Made by a program: the position numbers and the translations under genes. Positions 10,670 through 51,321 of a stretch of DNA of 51,321 nucleotides are shown one piece after another. The notes beneath the pieces are model-generated. The model did not search any database. It saw only the letters and a program-made list of their open reading frames with translations, and was not told the DNA's origin. The stretch's first letter is position 1. The number at the start of each line of letters is the position of its first letter. Source of the stretch: a virus; the IMG/VR virus record IMGVR_UViG_3300021517_000001, positions 1 to 51,321 of that record, one strand, 5' to 3'.

Positions 10670-11230
10670 TCAGCCGTTGTAAATTCTCTTGAGAGCAGTT
10701 ACAGCCCAGCGCTTGTTCCGGATGTCCGGATGATCGATGTTAGCCCGGATCACCTCCATGTAGTACGGGGAGACCGGCCAGACGTATTCTGCGGCCTCAG
10801 CATCCTCGGTTGTGATGTCGGGCCAGCGCAGCCGGTAGTCGTACTGCTCCGGGAGGGGGGTACCGGCATGGAAGGCCAGCCAGGCCTTTTTGACCAGCAC
10901 CTCTTTCTGCGCGCGGTGAAAAAGCTCATCCCCCAACCAATTTGGCACGTCGGTCACAGTTGCGATGGACTCGAGCTTGATGTTGTTTTGAAAGCCCCGG
11001 GCAACCCACTCCCCGATGATGATCTTCAAATAGATCTGGAGGGACGCCTCGTACCCATACCACTGCCGGACTATGAGCTGCCCCTTATGCCTGGAGCCCA
11101 CCGGATCAGTGCGAGTACTGCGAAGCATCGTAAGAACTCCCAGAGCCTCCCTGCGCTGACTTCCCAGCCGCATGTCGTCGAGGCATCGAGCCGTTTGTAC
11201 GAAGCTAGGATAGGGCAGGAAGGTCATCAT
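10670..11230 (-). CDS. pyrimidine-dimer DNA glycosylase-like protein
   Basis: A 186-residue protein resembling the MSMEG_6728-like group related to T4 endonuclease V, which removes UV-made pyrimidine dimers. The N-terminus has the family pattern TFLPYPSFVQTARCLDDMRL followed by QRREALGVL, then a WYGYEASLQIYL segment and EWVARGF. The C-terminus is not typical (VSPYYMEVIRANID). GGGAGG is seven bases before the ATG. It follows the MazG-like gene by four bases in one operon of nucleotide and repair genes. The assignment is from remembered family motifs. In a phage with modified guanines a different substrate cannot be ruled out. Confidence 0.6.
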   Translation of the reverse strand: MMTFLPYPSFVQTARCLDDMRLGSQRREALGVLTMLRSTRTDPVGSRHKGQLIVRQWYGYEASLQIYLKIIIGEWVARGFQNNIKLESIATVTDVPNWLGDELFHRAQKEVLVKKAWLAFHAGTPLPEQYDYRLRWPDITTEDAEAAEYVWPVSPYYMEVIRANIDHPDIRNKRWAVTALKRIYNG

Positions 11231-14562: not shown

Positions 14563-16989
14563 TTACTGCTTTTGAGAGCTTCTGATCTGTGTTCTCTTTG
14601 ACATCTCATCGTAAGAGCAGGGGCCAGTAAGCTCGATGTGCGCGTGCTGGTCGTTTACATCCCAAGCAGGAACCCAGCTATCGCTTTCCGAGTGCCAGTA
14701 CCATTGGGTCTCTTGCACGGGGCTCACGTCGGCCCAATTGGGTCCGATCTCTATCTCGGCCTTGATCGGGACGTTGATGTCTAAGGGGAGCCGATTCTCC
14801 ATGCAGTTATAGACCAGGTCAACGACTTCCGGGAGCTCTTCGATCTTTACCACCAGGTCGATTTCATCATGCACTGTGATGACGATGCGTGTTAAAAGTT
14901 CCCGCGCGAGGAGTTCGCTGTGCAGGTGGATCAGAGCATTTAGCGTGATGTCCGAGGCCGTTGACTGAATCGGGAAGTTCAAAGCCTGTCGCTGTGCTTC
15001 ACCTCGGGTCGATTGGTGAATGAAGGGCCACCGGCGGATCCTGCCTAGGGGAGTAGACAGCTCTTGCTTTGACAGTACGTCACGCCTCTGACCTGCCATC
15101 CAGTCTCGAAGGCGGCTGAACTCGTTCAGGTAGTTGTCAATGAACTCCTGAGCCATCTGTTCAGTCCAATGGTACTGCCGAAGCTCTCGACCGTATGCGA
15201 TCGAAAACGCTCCGCGACCGTAAAGCACCCCGAAGTCCACGAACTTGGCCGCGTAGCGTTGCTTCTTAGAAACATCGTTGGGGTCAATTTGGAACATCGC
15301 CGCTGCCACTTCGCTGTGAATATCCCGCTCATCGATGAAGGCCTGGATCATGTTCGAGTCTTGACTCAGGTAAGCCGCCACGCGCAGCTCGAGCTGAGAG
15401 TAATCTGCCTTCATCCAAACATATCCCGGGGGCGGCACGAAGGCTCTTCGGATAGCCGGACCTGCCATTTGAGGGATGGTTTGAAGCGCGGGGTCATTGC
15501 AGCTCAGTCTGCCTGTAGATGTGCCGGCCAGGTTGAAAGACGCGTGCACGCTGTTCGTCAGGTCGGTCAGAGCGAGCAGTCCGTCGACGTAAGTACCGAG
15601 GATCTTTTTGCGGCCCCGGAAGTCCTCAACCAGGCCCGCGAGGTCAGCAGCCGGCGTGTTGGGCATCTCTGTCTGCACCCAGGCGAGCATGTCCTTGTCC
15701 GTGGTGCGGGACGGATACGGGATACCGAGCTTGTCATAGAACACCTCGGCCAGCTGCTTGGGGGAGCCTGGATTGAAAGAAGCTAGCTCAACCAGGTTTC
15801 GAATGTCCTCCAGAACGTCTTCGATCTCATCCCGGATCTGCATACCGTAGTCAGTGAGGTACCCTACGTCGATCAGCGTTCCGTTGCGTTCAATGTCGGC
15901 CAGAGCGATCGTCGCCGGGAAGAGCAGTGTGTCCAGCACCTGACGCAGCGAAGCCGGCTCTTCTTCAAGCTCTTGCCTCAGATCATAATACAGCCGCGCG
16001 GTGCACCACAGATCGACCCCAAGGTAAGTATAGAGCGGCCCCCAGTCCCTCTGATCAGCAGGCTTGCTCCAAAACGCTTCGAAGTCGAATTTGTAATCTG
16101 TGAGGTCATACCTCACCCGGGCGATCGTCTTCAGACCGTGAGGAGACAGCCTGTCCGCAATCGGCCTCTCATCGAGGACGTAGTTCATCAGCAGTGTGTC
16201 GGCCACGTTCCGCACAGGGGTCCGCATCTTCAACCACTCGGCCAGGAACTGCAGATCGAACTTGGCGTTGTGAAAGACTACCGGCCCGAAGTAATCGCGG
16301 AAGAAATCTTTCACGCAGTATCGCACGACCTCGTTCTTCACCAGGTGCCAGGGGATGATCACAACCTCTCCCCCGTCAAGCTCTGGATATAAAGCCCCGA
16401 ACCCGATCGCTTCAATCTCATGCTCTTTGACCCTAAGACCCGAGGTCTCCAAGTCGCATGAGATAAATGAGGCTTTGCTCAGCCGGCACAGAGCGCTGCG
16501 CAGTTCTTCGGGGTCATCGCAGATAGTGTACCAGACCGTTGGGGGTTCCATCGGAGCGTCAATCCGGGCCAGCTTAGAAATGTCAGCCACGAGGTCCCTA
16601 AAGCTGTCGGGCTCTTTCATCACTTGGTATGCCGAAAACGTGGGGATGGCTACTCCGAAGAGGTCGTCAGCTAGCTTTAGCTTGATTGCTCGGCCGCGCT
16701 CTTTGAAGATGTTCCCGAGTTTGTTTTGCTTGTACACCGCGGCCAGGGATGCAGGCCCCATTAACAGCACTTTTTGCGGCTTGTGCTGGGCCAGGATTCG
16801 AGCAACGTTTCGACCCGCTACTGCCATGTCCGCATCAGACGGCTTGCCGCTAGTTACTGTGTGAGGCACAGCATACTCGAAGATAACCTCGTCTAGGTTG
16901 AACCCGCACGCTTTCAAGCACCGCTGTACTAAAGTGCTCTGATCAGTCTGCCTCTTAATCGGCCATTCCTGGATCACTAGGGTAGTCAT
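14563..16989 (-). CDS. family A DNA polymerase with 3'-5' exonuclease and UDG-like N-terminal region
   Basis: The phage replicative polymerase, 808 residues. Residues about 1-145 resemble the uracil-DNA glycosylase fold (VLLMGPASLAAVYKQNK, ERGRAIKL) but lack the GEAPG-type catalytic motif, so they are probably not active as a glycosylase. About 150-335 is the DnaQ-like proofreading exonuclease: DLE at 179-181, NAKFD at 241-245, and YLGVD at 322-326. About 355-770 is the polymerase: motif A ADYSQLELR (Asp529), motif B AKFVDFGVLYGRG (about 581-593), and motif C VHDE (706-709). The ATG overlaps the DpdA stop (ATGA). Catalytic residues are all present. The N-terminal assignment is weaker than the rest. 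Confidence 0.9.
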   Translation of the reverse strand: MTTLVIQEWPIKRQTDQSTLVQRCLKACGFNLDEVIFEYAVPHTVTSGKPSDADMAVAGRNVARILAQHKPQKVLLMGPASLAAVYKQNKLGNIFKERGRAIKLKLADDLFGVAIPTFSAYQVMKEPDSFRDLVADISKLARIDAPMEPPTVWYTICDDPEELRSALCRLSKASFISCDLETSGLRVKEHEIEAIGFGALYPELDGGEVVIIPWHLVKNEVVRYCVKDFFRDYFGPVVFHNAKFDLQFLAEWLKMRTPVRNVADTLLMNYVLDERPIADRLSPHGLKTIARVRYDLTDYKFDFEAFWSKPADQRDWGPLYTYLGVDLWCTARLYYDLRQELEEEPASLRQVLDTLLFPATIALADIERNGTLIDVGYLTDYGMQIRDEIEDVLEDIRNLVELASFNPGSPKQLAEVFYDKLGIPYPSRTTDKDMLAWVQTEMPNTPAADLAGLVEDFRGRKKILGTYVDGLLALTDLTNSVHASFNLAGTSTGRLSCNDPALQTIPQMAGPAIRRAFVPPPGYVWMKADYSQLELRVAAYLSQDSNMIQAFIDERDIHSEVAAAMFQIDPNDVSKKQRYAAKFVDFGVLYGRGAFSIAYGRELRQYHWTEQMAQEFIDNYLNEFSRLRDWMAGQRRDVLSKQELSTPLGRIRRWPFIHQSTRGEAQRQALNFPIQSTASDITLNALIHLHSELLARELLTRIVITVHDEIDLVVKIEELPEVVDLVYNCMENRLPLDINVPIKAEIEIGPNWADVSPVQETQWYWHSESDSWVPAWDVNDQHAHIELTGPCSYDEMSKRTQIRSSQKQ

Positions 16990-17801
16990 AGATCCATCCA
17001 GTTGGGCTGAATTCGGTGCATCACTGAACCGATATTGTACTGAGCGAGGTGCTTTTCATCCGCGGTCATTGTGCGGGTAAAGTAATCTTCAGGCCTTCCC
17101 GGGTTCTCGGGAGAAGCCCCGTAGCGCCTTGGAATCTTAACCCCGGCCATTGCATAGGTGAACGGCTTGACTGAGTCGACGGAGCGAATCCAAGGAAAGC
17201 GAAGAGCCGCCTGGCTGAGAGACACCCAATCAGAACTCATGCCCAGCAAGTGAACGTCCATGCGAGGCAGTAGCGCTTTCATCGGAGCTACGAACCTCTC
17301 AATGAGGTTGACCCGACCGCCTGGCCAGCTGTCGTAGACCTTTGATACCCCCACTGTGAAGGGGCGGTTTTCAAACATCTGATGATGCGCCTGCACGAGG
17401 ATGTTAAGAGCCTTGCCCCACCCGTAGATGGTCTCTGCTTGAGGTACAAGCATCAGGCGAATATCGTTGGCCCACGGAGAGCTCATTGCTCGAGACAGGG
17501 CTAGCTCTTCCATGCAGCTCAAGCTAAGGTCTATCGACTCGTCCATCTTCTGCATGACATCTGGGATGACCATTTCAGAGGCGTTGATGCTTACGGCCGC
17601 ATCGAGCAAAGCCCGGACATCGTTTGCTCCCTCGCCTAACTCGAAAGCCGAATTGTCCAGAGTGATGTAAGCAAATAACCCTGTGCGCGCGTAATGGTCT
17701 CGGTACTCATCGTTGCTCAGCAGGTGGTAAAGCGCCAAGTGGTACTCTCCACCGGCGTAGTCACGGAGATGCGGGACGGGGCAGATCAATCCTAATTTCA
17801 T
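16986..17801 (-). CDS. dpdA: DpdA-like DNA-guanine transglycosylase
   Basis: A 271-residue TIM-barrel protein resembling phage DpdA, the relative of tRNA-guanine transglycosylase that swaps guanine in DNA for a 7-deazaguanine. Key segments are LDNSAFELGE (about 49-58), MVIPDVM (about 97-103), FTVGVSKVYDSW, HLLGMSSDW and the late SVDSVKPF; the Asp residues in the first, second and last fit the conserved acidic positions of the family. It lacks the zinc site of the tRNA enzyme's C-terminus. GAGGGAG lies seven bases before the ATG. It sits downstream of QueD-QueE-FolE-QueC and next to the DNA polymerase, which makes the DNA-modification role much more likely than tRNA modification. Confidence 0.8.
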   Translation of the reverse strand: MKLGLICPVPHLRDYAGGEYHLALYHLLSNDEYRDHYARTGLFAYITLDNSAFELGEGANDVRALLDAAVSINASEMVIPDVMQKMDESIDLSLSCMEELALSRAMSSPWANDIRLMLVPQAETIYGWGKALNILVQAHHQMFENRPFTVGVSKVYDSWPGGRVNLIERFVAPMKALLPRMDVHLLGMSSDWVSLSQAALRFPWIRSVDSVKPFTYAMAGVKIPRRYGASPENPGRPEDYFTRTMTADEKHLAQYNIGSVMHRIQPNWMDL

Positions 17802-18159
17802 TGGGTTGCTCCCTCGTGAACCTCTTGTAAGCCATTAGCAGGGTGATGTACCCAAGAAGGTCCTGCCATGAGTCATCCAGCGACTCAAAGTTAGCAGACT
17901 CTCCCCGACGAAGAAGGTTCTGAATGCGTCCGAGTTTGATCCCGATGAGCACCATGATGACTGTGTCGATGCTCGCGCCCGCAACAGAAGCTGCCGTTTC
18001 GAAGTTATTCCAGGCATGCCCAAAAGCTGAGTAGTCCCCGCCCTTCAGCACCAGCAGCTGCTCCATGTGAGCAATAGTCTGCACAATGTGCTCCGGGTTG
18101 AGCATCAGGTTTGCGAGCTCGTCTAGAACCTTTAAGATGTAGTCTGATCCCTGAACCAT
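17761..18159 (-). CDS. nucleotide-modification-associated protein (DUF1599/DUF6378-like)
   Basis: A 132-residue helical protein with the pattern KGGDYSAFGHAWNNFE (about 39-54) and IGIKLGRIQNLL followed by ANFESLDDSWQDLLGY (about 72-104). This matches the small phage family called nucleotide modification associated domain 1, a MazG-related fold found beside hypermodification genes. It overlaps the DpdA start by 41 bases and follows QueC, so it is embedded in the modification cassette. The family's biochemistry is not settled; hydrolysis of an unmodified or modified nucleotide is a reasonable inference. AGGAGA precedes the ATG, with a perfect hairpin just upstream. Confidence 0.7.
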   Translation of the reverse strand: MVQGSDYILKVLDELANLMLNPEHIVQTIAHMEQLLVLKGGDYSAFGHAWNNFETAASVAGASIDTVIMVLIGIKLGRIQNLLRRGESANFESLDDSWQDLLGYITLLMAYKRFTREQPNEIRIDLPRPASP

Positions 18160-18172
18160 GATCGTTCTCCTG

Positions 18173-18196
18173 AGGGGAGGTTTTTACTCCTCCCCT
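18173..18196. promoter_or_regulatory. perfect intergenic hairpin upstream of a ribosome site
   Basis: AGGGGAGG (18173-18180) and CCTCCCCT (18189-18196) form an 8-bp stem between QueC and the next gene, with no T-run after it on the minus strand. It lies directly against the ribosome site of the gene starting at 18159. It could protect the mRNA or tune translation. Confidence 0.45.
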
Positions 18197-18209
18197 GGTG
18201 TTTACGAGA

Positions 18210-18983
18210 CTAGCGGTAAGCGGCCCCGTTTCGAGGGCTTGATTTCAGAAACCCCGGATTCGCACCGGTCGGCCAGGGAATCTCCTCAGCGTAAGGGATA
18301 GGGTCGATGTACCCCGCCGTCCGGAATGCTTCGATCCGCTCAACGCACGTCGCGCATTTGCCGCACGCGGGCTGCTCACCCTTGTAGCAAGAGTGGGTTA
18401 AAGCCAGCGGCGCGTTTACGACCGCAGCGCGCATGACGATGTCTGCCTTGCTGATGTGCACGTACGGTGCTTCTAAGAACACTTTCCCCGAAGTCGCGAC
18501 ATGGATTGCTTCCGTCATCGCATCGATGAATTCCGGCCGGCAGTCCGGGTAGTGATAGTTGTGAGCGTCATCCCCGTGCACAGCGACGTAGACCTTGCCT
18601 GCGTCGACAGTCAGGGCGTAAGTCACGGCCATCGCGATGAAGTTCATGTTGCGGTTCGGAACGACCGTGGGCTGAGCACCGTGACGAGCTGCCAGCTCTT
18701 GATACGATCCCAGCCCGATGTCTTCGATCGGAGCATCTGCATCGACCAGTGTGCTGCCCGCACCTGCAAAGATTCGAGGCAAGTCAATTCGGGTGTACAA
18801 CACACCAAAGTGCTCAGCGACGTCTTCAGCCGCCTTCAGCTCGACAGCATGCTTCTGCCCGTAGTTGAACCCAACTGCAAACACATTGCTTCGGCCGAAC
18901 AGAGACACTGCTTCAGTCAGCAGCGTGCAACTATCCATGCCCCCGGAAAAAGAGACGACTGCTCGGCGAAATGAAGGTACCAT
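18210..18983 (-). CDS. queC: QueC, 7-cyano-7-deazaguanine (preQ0) synthase
   Basis: A 257-residue enzyme that converts 7-carboxy-7-deazaguanine to preQ0 using ATP and ammonia. It shows the PP-loop SFSGGMDSCTLL (about residues 11-22), VGFNYGQKHAVEL, VVPNRNMNF, and the zinc cysteines CxxCxxC as CGKCATC near residue 220, preceded by THSCYKGEQPA. The length is normal and no glutamine amidotransferase domain is fused, unlike the Gat-QueC of phages that make archaeosine-like DNA. The start lies two bases after FolE with a weak ribosome site, so translational coupling is likely. It is the last of four preQ0 genes. Confidence 0.93.
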   Translation of the reverse strand: MVPSFRRAVVSFSGGMDSCTLLTEAVSLFGRSNVFAVGFNYGQKHAVELKAAEDVAEHFGVLYTRIDLPRIFAGAGSTLVDADAPIEDIGLGSYQELAARHGAQPTVVPNRNMNFIAMAVTYALTVDAGKVYVAVHGDDAHNYHYPDCRPEFIDAMTEAIHVATSGKVFLEAPYVHISKADIVMRAAVVNAPLALTHSCYKGEQPACGKCATCVERIEAFRTAGYIDPIPYAEEIPWPTGANPGFLKSSPRNGAAYR

Positions 18984-18984
18984 G

Positions 18985-19596
18985 TTACTTGCCAGACCTC
19001 ATGTGAGTAATGGCCTCCGCACGGAGGGCCGCATCGGTTAAAAAGATCCCCCGCGAAGCAGAGGTGGTGGTGGAGGACTCATGCGCGTGCACCCCCCGGC
19101 TAGTCATGCACGTATGCATGACATCGTACAGCGTCACGATGACTCCCTGAGGCTCAAGCACTGACATGAGGCAATCAGCTACCTGCCAGGTGATTTGCTC
19201 CTGCAGCTGCAGTCGACGGGCGAAGATATCCACCACTCGGGCCAGCTTGCTCAAGCCGATGACGTACGTGCCCGGCAGGTATGCAATCGCAGCTTTACCT
19301 ATGAACGGGCTCATGTGGTGTGCGCAGGTTGAGTACAGTGGGATGTCTTTCACGACGACTAGGTCTCGCTCGTGCCCGTTGTTCGGAAACACCGTGAGCA
19401 CGTCTTTGGGATTCATTTGATATCCCTTGAACCACTCTTCGAGCATAGCTTTGGCTACCCGTCCGGGTGTATCCGTGAAGTTTGGATCGCTCAGGTCGAT
19501 TTCGAGAGCCATCAGGACGTCTTTGATCGCCAGCTCGATGCGAAGCCCTTTGCGTATCTCGTTATCGACGACAAGGATGTTTCTGTCGAATTTCAC
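18985..19596 (-). CDS. folE: GTP cyclohydrolase I (FolE)
   Basis: A 203-residue enzyme for the first step from GTP, giving dihydroneopterin triphosphate for preQ0 synthesis. Diagnostic segments are DTPGRVAKAMLEEW, STCAHHMSPFIGKAAIAYLP (zinc Cys and His, about 100-120 from this start), GLSKLARVVDIFARRLQLQEQIT, and a late Cys in MHTCMTSRGV. The GTG start at 19596 is chosen because it comes one base after the QueE stop with GGGGG six bases upstream; ATG 19614 is an alternative that overlaps QueE. In an operon with queD, queE and queC its role is preQ0 supply rather than folate. Confidence 0.92.
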   Translation of the reverse strand: MKFDRNILVVDNEIRKGLRIELAIKDVLMALEIDLSDPNFTDTPGRVAKAMLEEWFKGYQMNPKDVLTVFPNNGHERDLVVVKDIPLYSTCAHHMSPFIGKAAIAYLPGTYVIGLSKLARVVDIFARRLQLQEQITWQVADCLMSVLEPQGVIVTLYDVMHTCMTSRGVHAHESSTTTSASRGIFLTDAALRAEAITHMRSGK

Positions 19597-19597
19597 G

Positions 19598-20353
19598 TCA
19601 CACCCCCAACGCATGGCCCCAAAGCAGCACATGCTGCTGAGCGCCTACATTGATTTCCCACAGGGTCTGCTGGCCGAAAAAGCTCAGCGCAGTTTCAGTC
19701 AGCCACTTGTATCGACGCAGCACGTCCGTGGAGGTGTCCGTAGCTAGTGTCCCAGTCGACAGGTAGATCGGAGTGTTGCCGACCCAATACGCCCCCTTGG
19801 TGAGGATGTGATTGACGTAGTTTAAGTCCTCCTGATCGAACACAACAAACTTGAAGAATGTCCGCCCGATCAATTGCTCCCTCTGGATATTGATCATGAA
19901 CATTTTGACGGCTTCTAGCGGGGTCGATCGTCCCGCTGAAGGGGGCTTTGGAGAGACCACGATCAGATCGGCTTTGCCCATCCAGGCATTCCAAAACGTT
20001 CCCTGAGTTTCGACCGCTACACGGTTCCCGGTAACGTGGAACAGTCGCACCAGCTCAGACAGGTCCCACAAAGCTGGATTGCCTCCGCTAAAGACGACCC
20101 ACGGGTACCGACCGGGCAGAGCAAGTACCTTCTCGTGAATCTCCTCAGCAGTCATGTTGGGCAGCTTTCGCACAAGAGCCGGGTCGACCGCATGCATCGA
20201 ATCGCACCACAAGCACCTGTAGTCGCAGCCGCCGAAGCGAACGAAGTAACAGGGGCTTCCAGTGTTCGGTCCTTCTCCTTGAATCGTGGGGCCGAATATC
20301 TCTGCGACTTTAAAAGTCCCCGACTTCATAATGACGTCTTGCTGGGAAATCAT
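19598..20353 (-). CDS. queE: QueE, 7-carboxy-7-deazaguanine synthase
   Basis: A radical SAM enzyme of about 251 residues that makes 7-carboxy-7-deazaguanine from carboxytetrahydropterin. It has the QueE N-terminus EIFGPTIQGEG, the cluster motif CDYRCLWCDS (CX3CX2C), FSGGNPALWDL in place of the usual GGEP region, and VVSPKPPSAG. The start is uncertain: ATG 20353 overlaps the QueD stop (ATGA), ATG 20362 lies within QueD, and ATG 20329 (MKSGTFKV) gives the usual short N-terminus. All have weak ribosome sites, which supports coupling to queD. Confidence 0.92.
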   Translation of the reverse strand: MISQQDVIMKSGTFKVAEIFGPTIQGEGPNTGSPCYFVRFGGCDYRCLWCDSMHAVDPALVRKLPNMTAEEIHEKVLALPGRYPWVVFSGGNPALWDLSELVRLFHVTGNRVAVETQGTFWNAWMGKADLIVVSPKPPSAGRSTPLEAVKMFMINIQREQLIGRTFFKFVVFDQEDLNYVNHILTKGAYWVGNTPIYLSTGTLATDTSTDVLRRYKWLTETALSFFGQQTLWEINVGAQQHVLLWGHALGV

Positions 20354-21003
20354 TTCAGCCATGTGACTGTCGCGACCCCCGTTTCGGTCTCCCACACGCG
20401 GACGCTTTGCACCCACACGTGCTCATATGCCGGTTGTGCGCCCGCAAGAGCGTTCAGCCCCGTCACCATCTCGTCGAAGATCCATTGGGCAAGGTACTCG
20501 GCAGTCGTGACCGGGATGTCTAGTAGTGCGACCTTGCCAAAGCCCTTGTTTCGAAAGAAGCTTTCAACCCTGTCCTTCTTTTGCCATCGACCATCGACGA
20601 CTGCACTTCCGTGATCTTGATCGCCGTAAAAGTCGAAGCCGAAGAATCGATAATCGAAAGGATCAAAAGCGCCGAACCATTTGAGTGGAACGGTCCCCAG
20701 CAGCAGCGCATGGTCAAGCTTATTGTGAATCGCCATGTTGTAGATCTGCTTGAGGTCGGCAAAGTCCATGACCATGCCAGCAGCCGGATCGATCAAGTTC
20801 GGATCATCCGCAGCACCGCCGATGACGTTTCCTCCGACTTCAACTTCGACCTTGTAATTATGCCCGTGAAGGTTAGCACAAGGCCCCTCATGATGCGGCA
20901 GTTGGTGAGCAGCTGAGATTGCGCCGCAAACCTTGCTGATGGTTGTCGTTGTGTACGGCTCGAGCAGCCTTTGCTTGCGAGCCTCAAAGGTGTCTTCAAT
21001 CAT
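20350..21003 (-). CDS. queD: QueD, 6-carboxy-5,6,7,8-tetrahydropterin synthase
   Basis: A 217-residue enzyme that turns dihydroneopterin triphosphate into carboxytetrahydropterin. The zinc-binding region reads ISAAHQLPHHEGPCANLHGHNYKVEV split over residues about 28-53: His33, His46 and His48, with the catalytic Cys in GPCANLHGH. Other family marks are MVMDFADLK, LDHALLLG, VTTAEYLAQW and the final VWETETGVATV. A roughly 35-residue insertion after LDHALL (FGAFDPFDYRFFGF and DGRWQKKDRVESF) makes it longer than bacterial QueD. AAAGG lies six bases before the ATG. It is the first gene of the preQ0 cassette. Confidence 0.92.
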   Translation of the reverse strand: MIEDTFEARKQRLLEPYTTTTISKVCGAISAAHQLPHHEGPCANLHGHNYKVEVEVGGNVIGGAADDPNLIDPAAGMVMDFADLKQIYNMAIHNKLDHALLLGTVPLKWFGAFDPFDYRFFGFDFYGDQDHGSAVVDGRWQKKDRVESFFRNKGFGKVALLDIPVTTAEYLAQWIFDEMVTGLNALAGAQPAYEHVWVQSVRVWETETGVATVTWLK

Positions 21004-27224: not shown

Positions 27225-28184
27225 CTAGAACATGTTCGCAAGCGTGTGGGCAGCCTTCTCGAGTTCCTCTTTTCCGCGCAAATCATATCGCCGCGTCGTC
27301 TCAGACAAAGCATGGCCAGCCAGTTGCTGCACCAAGAAAATATCCACGCCGTTGAGCAGAAGGCTCGTAATGAACGTTTTGCGCAGGTCGTGGGGCTTTA
27401 CATAATGAATGCCGGCAGCCAGACATCTGCGCTTGAGAACGTCCATGATTGTTTGTCCGGAGATCGGCTCTAGCTGGGGAAGCCAGTCAACGCGGACAAA
27501 TAACGGACCGGGAGCGACGCCTCGAACAGCAATCCACTGATCAACAATCTCTCGAGCCCGGGAGTTGATAAACAGCCACCTGTCCTTGTTGCCTTTGCCT
27601 TTAGCCAGGATCAACTCGTAGCCGTCGTTGTGGGGGACTAGGTCTTCTAAAAAGACACTGACCGTCTCTTCCCGACGAGCCCCCGTTGCAACCATAAATG
27701 AGATAAGCGCCTTGTCTCGGACGCCTCCAGCGCCTCCAGCGGCCTCGCAGGCATCTAACAGCTTCGTCAGTTCTGCGGCTTCCAGCGACCGGCCTTTAGG
27801 AAGGGTGACCCCAACCACCCACTCGAAATCCAGCCGACGATTCATCTCTTCGACTGAAATGAGCTCGAGGCGCCAGCATGCCTTAATGACGCCGCGCAGA
27901 CCTGCTAGGTACAGGTTCGCGGTTGAGTGAGCGTAGTCCTGCATGAGGACCGATCGAATCTTCAGAATGACAGGCAGCTTGAGCATGTGCCAGGGGAACG
28001 AGTAGATCTCAGCCAGGCGGACATCCTTAGTCTGCATGATGATCTTGAGCACCGCCAGCAACGCAAAGCGCATGGTCGATTGCGCCGTGGGGCTGAGAGT
28101 ATTCAAGTACATTGTGACGGGGTCAAATCCGTCAGGGAATTGGACGGGAGCGATGTCCACGTCTTGCGGGATGATAGTAGTCAC
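27225..28184 (-). CDS. tyrosine recombinase (integrase)
   Basis: A 319-residue site-specific recombinase. The N-terminal part (about 20-110) is a SAM-like core-binding domain (STANLYLAGLRGVIKACW). The catalytic domain shows all active residues: Arg170 in ATGARREE, Lys in KGKGNKDR (about 197-200), His265 and Arg268 in HDLRKTF, His291 in GHALSET and Tyr300 in RRYD. The start is GTG with AAGGAG nine bases upstream, overlapping the primase stop region. It is in one operon with the primase. It could integrate the phage, resolve dimers of the circular genome, or both; no repressor or attachment site was recognised, so a temperate life cycle is not certain. Confidence 0.9.
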   Translation of the reverse strand: MTTIIPQDVDIAPVQFPDGFDPVTMYLNTLSPTAQSTMRFALLAVLKIIMQTKDVRLAEIYSFPWHMLKLPVILKIRSVLMQDYAHSTANLYLAGLRGVIKACWRLELISVEEMNRRLDFEWVVGVTLPKGRSLEAAELTKLLDACEAAGGAGGVRDKALISFMVATGARREETVSVFLEDLVPHNDGYELILAKGKGNKDRWLFINSRAREIVDQWIAVRGVAPGPLFVRVDWLPQLEPISGQTIMDVLKRRCLAAGIHYVKPHDLRKTFITSLLLNGVDIFLVQQLAGHALSETTRRYDLRGKEELEKAAHTLANMF

Positions 28185-48843: not shown

Positions 48844-51225
48844 CTACACAGCGACGTTATAAGACAGAGCGGCTGCCTCATTGTCACGGTATGCGATGCC
48901 CCAGCGCATGTGCGCGACGACCTGAGTCACATCCTGATATGCGAAGTACGTGACATCGGTCTGCAGACGGCGCTTCCAGCGAGACACCCACTGATCGGGC
49001 CGGACCAGCAGAATGCGGCCCTTGGTGTTGTTTGAGCCTGTCCCGGAAATCATGCCGTTCGTGTTGGCTTTGCCGAGCTGAGCAGAGCGCAGGACTTCGA
49101 TACCCCAAATGCGGGTGAGGACGCCATTCTCGATCGTAGCGTTCGTGAACACGTCGTGCGTCTTCAGGGCCGCAATGCGCAGCGATGCAAAGTAGGTCGA
49201 GTTATCGACCACGAACATAACCCGGTCAAGATCTGTGGCGTACTTGCCTTCCGGCCCGAGCAGAGGCAGCAACAGCAGGTAGTCGTCCTCATCCAGGGTC
49301 GCACCTGCGTCTCGAGCATTGGCCGTATTCACGACCAGAGGCAGATGAGCCCACCCGTCGAGAAGGGTATACGCAGGACGCGTCGGCGCTGACGCCGGAG
49401 TACCATCGATCAGGTTGATGTTGGAGTTTGCCGTCAGCGTGACATCCCCGCGCAGCAAGATCATTTCGATCTGCTCGGCCGAGGTCACCTGAATCTTGCG
49501 CTGAGCTTCCTGAACGATCGGAACGATGCTGTCCTCAACCAGCTCTTGCTGGAAGACCATCGCAACCGAGAGCTTCGCGACGTTGACCGCCTTCTCACCG
49601 GTGCCGATCTTGCTGGTTGCAAACGTCGGAGTTGCCATGCCGGAAGACGTGTCGATGTCGGTGGTTCCGGGTGCAACATACCAGCTCGGATCTGCGCCTT
49701 CAAGCGGAATGGTCTCAGCGTTATACCCCTGAGGGATTTCCGCGTTATCCATGCCCAACGCGATCGCGCGATCCCATACCGGAGTGTTCTGCCGGATAGT
49801 TTCCCACATCGTGGTGCCCTGCAGGTCTTTTACCCACTCAAGCCCCACCCCGGCGTCGTCGGTCTGCATGACCTCGTTGGCACGAATGGCGCGACCATCC
49901 TTGCGGACGAAGTTTTTGCGAATCTCCGGGTCGTTGAGTTCTGAGTCGCCGCGCTCGATTCCCACAGCCGTCTTGTAGGTCATCTCCTTCAGGTATTCCT
50001 GACTGACCGGCGACATGCGACCGCGCAGAGCCCTGGGCTGGTTAGCTTCGAGAAGGATGTACCCGAGAGCCATCTGTTCCGGGGTCATCCCATCAAAGCG
50101 GCTCATCACCTCGATCCGAGATCCGGTGCCTCGAGGCGCGATCGGATACAGGTCGTTCGGAGCCGCGTGCTGCTGCGACCGAGATTGCGACTGTTCGCGA
50201 CGTGCTTGGCGCTCGAGGGCACGAACGCGCCGATCCAGCTCGTCGTCGTCATCATCGTCGTCATCCGGAACATGCCGCCTCTTCGAGGGCTTCTTGCTGC
50301 GGCCGGCCAGCGCCAAAAGCTTCTTGAAAGCTTCGACAAGATCCGGGGGCAAAGCTTCGCCTGAGCCTTGCAGTTCTGAAGCGTCTGCTTCAGCTGCAGG
50401 GTCTTCGACGTCCCGGGCTTCGTCTGCTTCGGGGGCGGACATTTCTTCGACCGGACCAGACATCTGCGCGATCAGGTCCATGATGGCTTCTACGCCGTAC
50501 TCCTCTACGAGAGCGGCGAGAATTTCTTCAGGAGACGCGTTGACGTTCTCCTCCTTAAGCAGCTCCTGCAACGTCGCCCGGATGGGCGAATTGCTTGCCT
50601 TGCGGCGGGACTGCTTCTGACGTGCGGCAGTCTTCTTCATGGGTGGGTCCTCTGAGATTGAATTAGATTTCTGTCTTGGCTGCCCCGGAGAAACCTTTCC
50701 CGGCTTTGGCCCGCCTTTTACTGACCGTACTAACACCACGGCTGGCATTCTGTCTTCTGCCGGAGTCTTGGTGAGAGATACCTCTGCTAGTAACCAACTG
50801 ACAAAGCGGCCGTCGTCGTCAAAGTCTGCAAGGTGTGGGGACGACCCGCTGGAGGTTTTCAAAACGCCTGAAACCACTTCTGACAGGATCCTTTTAAAGT
50901 GCCGGGATCCTCGATCTAAGATAGCGCGAAATCCGATGCCCGCGGAGTCGAAGAAGACTTTGTAAATTCGCCCGACAATGTCTTTGCGAATAACACTGTC
51001 ATCCGCGTGCTCATACATCAAAGGGATCGGAAGGAAGTCCAGTCCCATTTCGGGAGGACGTTCTTTGTCAAACCAAGTATCGTAGCTGTCTCGCTGATCG
51101 GGAGAACCCCATATAGCGATATAGCCTAGAATTTCCCCCCGAGCGTGATCTAGCACCTCTAGGGAAGGTTGTGGAAGAACTATCGCCGTCGAGGAGGCTC
51201 GATAAGATAAAGAAAAACGCTTCAT
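48844..51225 (-). CDS. prohead protease - scaffold - major capsid protein fusion
   Basis: A 793-residue fusion of the three head-shell proteins usually separate. Residues about 25-170 match the S78-type prohead protease: GYIAIWGSPDQRDSYDTWF, catalytic His73 in YEHADD, Ser150 in AEVSLTKTPAEDRM. About 196-375 is helical, charged and includes eight Asp in a row (321-328): the scaffold. About 380-793 is an HK97-fold capsid protein (MALGYILLEANQPRALRGRM, AVNVAKLSVAMVFQQELVED, VMFVVDNSTYFASLRIAAL). An internal ATG at 50640 (codon 196) has GAGGA seven bases upstream and would yield scaffold-capsid without protease. The full start overlaps the previous stop across the circle junction. Confidence 0.85.
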   Translation of the reverse strand: MKRFSLSYRASSTAIVLPQPSLEVLDHARGEILGYIAIWGSPDQRDSYDTWFDKERPPEMGLDFLPIPLMYEHADDSVIRKDIVGRIYKVFFDSAGIGFRAILDRGSRHFKRILSEVVSGVLKTSSGSSPHLADFDDDGRFVSWLLAEVSLTKTPAEDRMPAVVLVRSVKGGPKPGKVSPGQPRQKSNSISEDPPMKKTAARQKQSRRKASNSPIRATLQELLKEENVNASPEEILAALVEEYGVEAIMDLIAQMSGPVEEMSAPEADEARDVEDPAAEADASELQGSGEALPPDLVEAFKKLLALAGRSKKPSKRRHVPDDDDDDDDELDRRVRALERQARREQSQSRSQQHAAPNDLYPIAPRGTGSRIEVMSRFDGMTPEQMALGYILLEANQPRALRGRMSPVSQEYLKEMTYKTAVGIERGDSELNDPEIRKNFVRKDGRAIRANEVMQTDDAGVGLEWVKDLQGTTMWETIRQNTPVWDRAIALGMDNAEIPQGYNAETIPLEGADPSWYVAPGTTDIDTSSGMATPTFATSKIGTGEKAVNVAKLSVAMVFQQELVEDSIVPIVQEAQRKIQVTSAEQIEMILLRGDVTLTANSNINLIDGTPASAPTRPAYTLLDGWAHLPLVVNTANARDAGATLDEDDYLLLLPLLGPEGKYATDLDRVMFVVDNSTYFASLRIAALKTHDVFTNATIENGVLTRIWGIEVLRSAQLGKANTNGMISGTGSNNTKGRILLVRPDQWVSRWKRRLQTDVTYFAYQDVTQVVAHMRWGIAYRDNEAAALSYNVAV
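50628..50660 (-). promoter_or_regulatory. candidate internal translation start of the scaffold-capsid part
   Basis: In-frame ATG at 50640 with GAGGA seven bases upstream on the minus strand, exactly at the junction of the protease and scaffold parts. It would give a 598-residue protein, allowing far more capsid than protease to be made. Confidence 0.55.
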
Positions 51226-51321
51226 GGCAGGAACGCTTTCACAGCTTTGTCAAGCTCAGCATCTAAAGCAGCTTCCATGTCTGACACTGACTTCTGAATA
51301 GAAACGCTCATCGGCTCCCAC
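51195..51321. repeat. terminal duplicate of window positions 1-127
   Basis: The final 127 bases are identical to the first 127. This is the usual mark of a circular contig closed by an overlap of one long k-mer, and the portion at 51222-51321 is therefore only a second, partial copy of the gp10-like gene at 28-465. It shows that the capsid gene follows that gene directly. It is not evidence of a physical terminal repeat. Confidence 0.9.

Follow-up and report, generated by a model that had tools for sequence, protein, structure and literature searches.

The virus record IMGVR_UViG_3300021517_000001 (IMG/VR) was analysed over its whole length of 51,321 bases, hereafter referred to as the window. 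Six open reading frames (ORFs), all on the minus strand and tightly packed, fill exactly positions 16986–21003. This cluster very probably makes 7-cyano-7-deazaguanine (preQ0), which a divergent DpdA, a DNA-guanine transglycosylase, would swap for guanine in replicated DNA, giving the modified deoxynucleoside dPreQ0 and blocking restriction. The placement of a 7-deazaguanine in the stead of guanine is a known anti-restriction strategy of phages. The results reported here would extend this modification to insertion enzymes of a widespread family, a large and mostly unannotated branch of DpdA that is missed by Pfam, NCBIfam and the function-annotated PHROGs.

A preQ0 pathway and a candidate insertion enzyme

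Four of the six ORFs encode enzymes of preQ0 synthesis. The ORF at 18210–18983 (257 amino acids, aa) encodes the preQ0 synthase QueC (PF06508, 2.7e-53; TIGR00364, 174 bits against a cut-off of 150), that at 18985–19632 (215 aa) the GTP cyclohydrolase I FolE (PF01227, 1.6e-59; TIGR00063, 189 against a cut-off of 182), and that at 19598–20416 (272 aa) the radical S-adenosylmethionine enzyme 7-carboxy-7-deazaguanine synthase, QueE, whose score to TIGR03365 lies exactly at the cut-off of 206.1 bits (E 5.5e-61). All three meet curated equivalog cut-offs. The fourth, QueD (6-carboxytetrahydropterin synthase, 217 aa, 20350–21003), is over the Pfam cut-off for the 6-pyruvoyl-tetrahydropterin synthase (PTPS) fold (PF01242, 1.8e-27) and slightly below that of the QueD equivalog TIGR03367 (84 against 89 bits). 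It holds approximately 60 additional residues between its LDH motif and its second half; both halves flanking this insertion align to E. coli QueD (4ntm, 2.4e-7), and the motifs CANLHGH (CxxxHxH) and LDH are intact. Residues 35–272 of QueE align to a solved QueE (5tgs, 4.6e-35) with CDYRCLWC (CxxxCxxC) intact, and 180 residues of FolE align to a solved GTP cyclohydrolase 1 (3.3e-43) with CAHH and HTCMTSRGV intact. For QueD, QueE and FolE alike, the solved relatives align across the catalytic regions. QueC retains SGGMDS, YGQKHAVE, VPNRN, YPDC and CY..C..C..C, the first spacer of its Cys-Tyr zinc motif being seven residues rather than eight. It carries the catalytic signature defined by Libby et al. 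2026 for the canonical, preQ0-making QueC, whereas the defence paralogue QatC is devoid of the middle motifs (PMC13329287). The original prediction that queD, queE, folE and queC are present with intact motifs was thus borne out by family matches, motifs and alignments to solved structures. Judged from sequence, the FolE-QueD-QueE-QueC route is complete, and its enzymes would be active.

The ORF at 16986–17801 encodes a protein of 271 aa, which on the basis of profile searches, its predicted fold and its linkage to preQ0 genes and to a DNA polymerase gene (polA) is most likely a divergent DpdA-type DNA-guanine transglycosylase. Single-sequence searches with this protein gave nothing and the case was therefore built on profiles and structure. 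A family profile was constructed from 57 aligned relatives, and its best sequence match in the PDB was 7ui4, a bacterial DNA-guanine transglycosylase (E 0.0012); the HLLG and DS motifs coincide in this alignment. An hhalign comparison of the family with the DpdA proteins of phages 9g, CAjan and Dp-1 gave an E of 1.3e-5 and a probability of 80%, pairing D49, H184 and D209 with D72, H196 and D215 of 9g. In this way D49 and D209 match the two catalytic aspartates of the tRNA-guanine transglycosylase (TGT) superfamily, and H184 matches His196 of DpdA (9g numbering). This comparison is the sole sequence link between the family and the DpdA of 9g and CAjan; a profile of the 9g, CAjan and Dp-1 proteins found no TGT in the PDB and therefore could not link the groups. 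The 57-relative profile also gave a weak match to Zymomonas TGT (E of approximately 1), in which D209 falls on the TGT nucleophile, beside the C281S mutation that marks the catalytic nucleophile in 3uvi. L24, D49, N50, S51, E54, L55, H184, G187 and D209 are invariant across the 57 sequences and P80, D81 and R163 almost invariant; 49 of the sequences retain Q121.

An AlphaFold model of the protein (predicted local distance difference test score 93, predicted template modelling score 0.90) has eight strands alternating with helices (residues 2–5, 20–24, 45–49, 76–78, 115–118, 148–153, 181–186 and 205–210). In the model, the conserved residues are placed at or just past the ends of strands 3, 4, 5, 7 and 8, an arrangement seen in barrel enzymes. 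In a fold search of the PDB, the leading matches to the predicted structure are all TGTs (E of approximately 2e-6, probability 1.00). Its best viral fold matches are unnamed phage proteins of approximately 20% identity, including one from Cellulophaga phage phiST, and these are followed by phage ‘queuine tRNA-ribosyltransferases’ and the DpdA2 of Vibrio phage nt-1. The DpdA identity first proposed for the 271-residue protein therefore passes both a profile search, with 7ui4 as best match, and a fold search topped by TGTs.

Several observations weigh against this assignment. Taken alone, the protein has no match in Pfam, NCBIfam, PHROG or the PDB, and the Pfam TGT model PF01702 gives none even at an E of 10. 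The match of the profile to 7ui4 is modest and limited to the later part of the profile, and PipY, another barrel protein, comes next in the same search at 0.015. Lastly, some relatives have no preQ0 genes nearby, and these must either obtain the base from another source or serve a different function. The protein also stands apart from true TGTs, which carry a cysteine-rich zinc site after the nucleophile. No cysteine is conserved in the family and the window protein has just two, C7 and C96, neither of them after D209, and so this zinc site is missing. Membership of the Pfam TGT family was accordingly rejected.

Relatives and gene neighbourhood of the DpdA family

A tblastn search of phage genomes with the 271-residue protein returned four weak relatives. 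In Weizmannia phage Youna2 the homologue lies after queC, queD, queE and folE and before polA, and in Brevundimonas phage StAshley it lies between queE and polA. A renewed search from the Youna2 homologue led to Bacillus phages BSP7 and BSTP and to Flavobacterium phage immuto, whose homologue (immuto 2-6A, YP_010114477) was named DNA guanine transglycosylase, DpdA by its depositors. Those of Youna2, the BSP7/BSTP group and StAshley are annotated as hypothetical or as something unrelated (integrase, NadR, kinase). The proteins of immuto, Youna2, BSP7 and StAshley share family, length and motifs with the window protein at approximately 18–24% identity, and as in the window their genes have preQ0 genes as neighbours and a family A polymerase gene downstream. 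Because the cultured Youna2, BSP7/BSTP group and StAshley share this neighbourhood, the DNA chemistry is testable in laboratory phages.

A scan of viral contigs with the 271-residue protein as a single sequence found no relatives; the viral contig scan for the family gave at least 196 candidate stretches encoding relatives, and 80 loci were retained from these. Almost all members of the family come from viruses: a genome collection, searched with similar patterns, contained two relatives against the at least 196 of the viral scan. For linkage counts the loci were dereplicated at 90%, leaving 40 of at least 10 kb and 53 with room downstream. At least one preQ0 gene was present in 32/40 and at least three in 23/40, whilst polA starts no more than 600 bases downstream of dpdA in at least 31/53. 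Two unrelated window genes that served as yardsticks, the 132-residue ORF and the denV-like gene described below, were in none of the 80 dpdA loci. In the window itself polA lies directly downstream of dpdA and overlaps its stop by 4 bp. The adjacency to the polymerase noted at the outset is thus upheld, both here and in relatives.

In a tree of the family the window protein groups with those of loci L009 and L010 (support 100/97), and the gene order of L009 is that of the window. QueF is restricted to the immuto side of the tree, away from the window, and in most cases a formyltransferase gene lies beside dpdA. The branch with both QueF and the formyltransferase close to dpdA comprises L089, L018, L053, L072, L073, L075, L080 and L083, which suggests that these phages carry an aminomethyl or further formylated base. 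The end chemistry would therefore vary by branch, with QueF and formyltransferase in that of immuto and neither in that of the window. A separate, well-supported branch (100/100; L013, L016, L030, L038 and L040) has dpdA beside polA with no preQ0 gene nearby. Over their entire length the records of this branch, most of them short, yielded no QueC, and its members may draw on host preQ0 or serve another purpose.

Comparison with known systems places the window protein at a distance from each. CAjan and 9g (phrog_887) likewise carry four preQ0 genes, DpdA and a polymerase gene nearby, and the catalytic D, H and D of their DpdA align with the 271-residue family by profile. However, the polymerase of CAjan is of family B, in contrast to the family A enzyme of the window, both phages have a clamp gene and 9g has a Gat-QueC. 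The window protein has no PHROG match, and tblastn with the DpdA of 9g and CAjan found 0 loci, which places it outside phrog_887. The nt-1 DpdA2 shares with the window protein the TGT superfamily, a predicted fold match (rank 19 among viral matches) and preQ0 genes nearby, but it is 464 aa long and accompanied in nt-1 by ArcS (PMC6884629), whereas no ArcS was found in the window. An assignment to DpdA2 was rejected, as hhalign of the family to the single nt-1 sequence was not significant (probability 4%) and H184 is invariant; its equivalent, His196 of 9g, is lacking in DpdA2 according to Hutinet et al. (PMC6884629). The bacterial DpdA 7ui4 is the best PDB sequence match to the profile but is 436 aa long. 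Bacterial DpdA is encoded within a genomic island of several genes, whereas in the window phage the insertion enzyme is accompanied by the preQ0 genes alone. The window DpdA lies on a branch distant from both the 9g/CAjan DpdA and the nt-1 DpdA2.

The predicted base and alternative explanations

An exact 127-base direct repeat is found at both ends of the record (1–127 and 51195–51321), and because of this the genome is most likely complete, circular or circularly permuted, with a length of approximately 51,194 bases. Within this apparently complete genome no QueF over the cut-off, no ArcS and no Gat domain (GATase) was found. A weak QueF match at 19138–19299 proved to be the folE gene itself, a fold relative, and was rejected as a QueF. 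QueC has no amidotransferase fusion. The search of the genome for QueF, ArcS and Gat agrees with what the original prediction had stated of both QueC and QueF, and on these grounds dPreQ0 is the best and most economical prediction for the modified base, although host enzymes could change it.

In the proposed route, GTP would be converted to preQ0 by FolE, QueD, QueE and QueC. The fold, residues and linkage of the 271-residue DpdA suggest that it would then exchange guanine for preQ0 in phage DNA that has already been replicated, and the resulting dPreQ0 would, by analogy with CAjan, block host restriction enzymes. dPreQ0 has been measured in CAjan and Rosebush at approximately 30% of guanines, and inactivation of dpdA in CAjan abolishes both the base and the protection from restriction (PMC6884629). 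Palindromes are not avoided in the window (GATC occurs 300 times against 314 expected), a result that fits protected DNA without being specific to it. GA or GGC are given as modification targets of CAjan in work cited by PMC8306585; as the window enzyme is only distantly related to that of CAjan, these targets cannot be assumed here.

Of the alternatives, the one that survives best, though it is still fairly unlikely, is that a 7-deazaguanine is made but that the base in DNA is mainly 2′-deoxy-7-amido-7-deazaguanosine (dADG), 2′-deoxy-7-aminomethyl-7-deazaguanosine (dPreQ1) or 2′-deoxyarchaeosine (dG+), through the action of QueF from the host or of a phage enzyme that escaped recognition. Salmonella phage 7-11, which has dpdA only, carries dADG, HVTV-1 carries several bases, and Rosebush, with a gene content similar to that of the window, has traces of dADG (PMC6884629). 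Moreover, in the immuto branch of this family dpdA has QueF and formyltransferase genes next to it, and several early ORFs of the window are without assignment. Against this stand the results of the genome search for QueF, ArcS and GATase and the observation that the modified base of CAjan and Rosebush, whose gene content is the same, is almost exclusively dPreQ0 (PMC6884629).

A variant that we consider improbable is that the family forms a polymerase-coupled branch of DpdA, with the exchange taking place at the replication fork and PolA and DpdA acting together. Exchange at the fork would explain why dpdA stays beside polA in diverse phages, and such coupling would, if true, set the density or the strand preference of the modification.

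It is very unlikely that the base is instead incorporated as a nucleotide by the adjacent family A polymerase, with the 271-residue protein acting on free nucleosides or nucleotides. The conserved adjacency of dpdA and polA and a phosphoribosyltransferase near some relatives would fit such a route, as would the Campylobacter phages that, in work cited by PMC6884629, carry dADG without DpdA. However, the protein has the predicted fold and the catalytic residues of TGT/DpdA enzymes that act on polymers, and the window ORFs that were scanned included no recognisable phosphoribosyltransferase or nucleotide kinase. The least probable explanation is that the cluster serves to increase preQ0 or queuosine for the tRNA of the host and that the protein is a TGT, as its modelled fold and the tRNA boosting proposed for phages with the pathway but without DpdA (PMC6884629) might suggest; the missing zinc site, the failure to match PF01702, a DNA enzyme (7ui4) as best sequence match, the link to polA and the near confinement of the gene to viruses all speak against it. 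We therefore infer that DNA, not tRNA, is the substrate of the 271-residue protein, and retain the insertion of preQ0 into replicated DNA as the preferred reading.

Other genes of the cluster and genome

The polA gene (14563–16989, minus strand) encodes a family A DNA polymerase of 808 aa (PF00476, 2.3e-95) with a 3′–5′ exonuclease (PF01612, 1.5e-12). Its 4-base overlap with dpdA is one of four in the region, the others being between queD and queE, queE and folE, and the 132-residue ORF and the start of dpdA.

This 132-residue ORF (17761–18159, minus strand) had been labelled a nucleotide-modification-associated protein, a label that is unsupported. Its score to DUF1599 (‘nucleotide modification associated domain 1’) is 16 bits, below the curated cut-off of 25, and it matches phrog_1485 at 1.5e-11. 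A single-sequence scan of viral contigs found no relatives of it, and those in Streptomyces phages adjoin dCMP deaminase. Given these neighbours and its absence from all 80 dpdA loci, it was rejected as a member of the modification module and probably belongs to accessory nucleotide metabolism.

Elsewhere in the genome, a tyrosine-type phage integrase is encoded at 27225–28184 (PF00589, 6e-27), given which the phage may be temperate. The ORF at 10670–11230 contains a Pyr_excise pyrimidine dimer DNA glycosylase domain (8.5e-14) and resembles the T4 repair enzyme denV. An ORF of 1270 aa at 693–4505 matches portal proteins in its N-terminal part and head morphogenesis proteins at approximately residues 830–1040, and by these matches is a predicted fusion of portal and minor head protein. 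Finally, the 793-residue ORF at 48844–51225 matches major head proteins chiefly in its C-terminal part, and a fused scaffold or protease may make up its N-terminal half.

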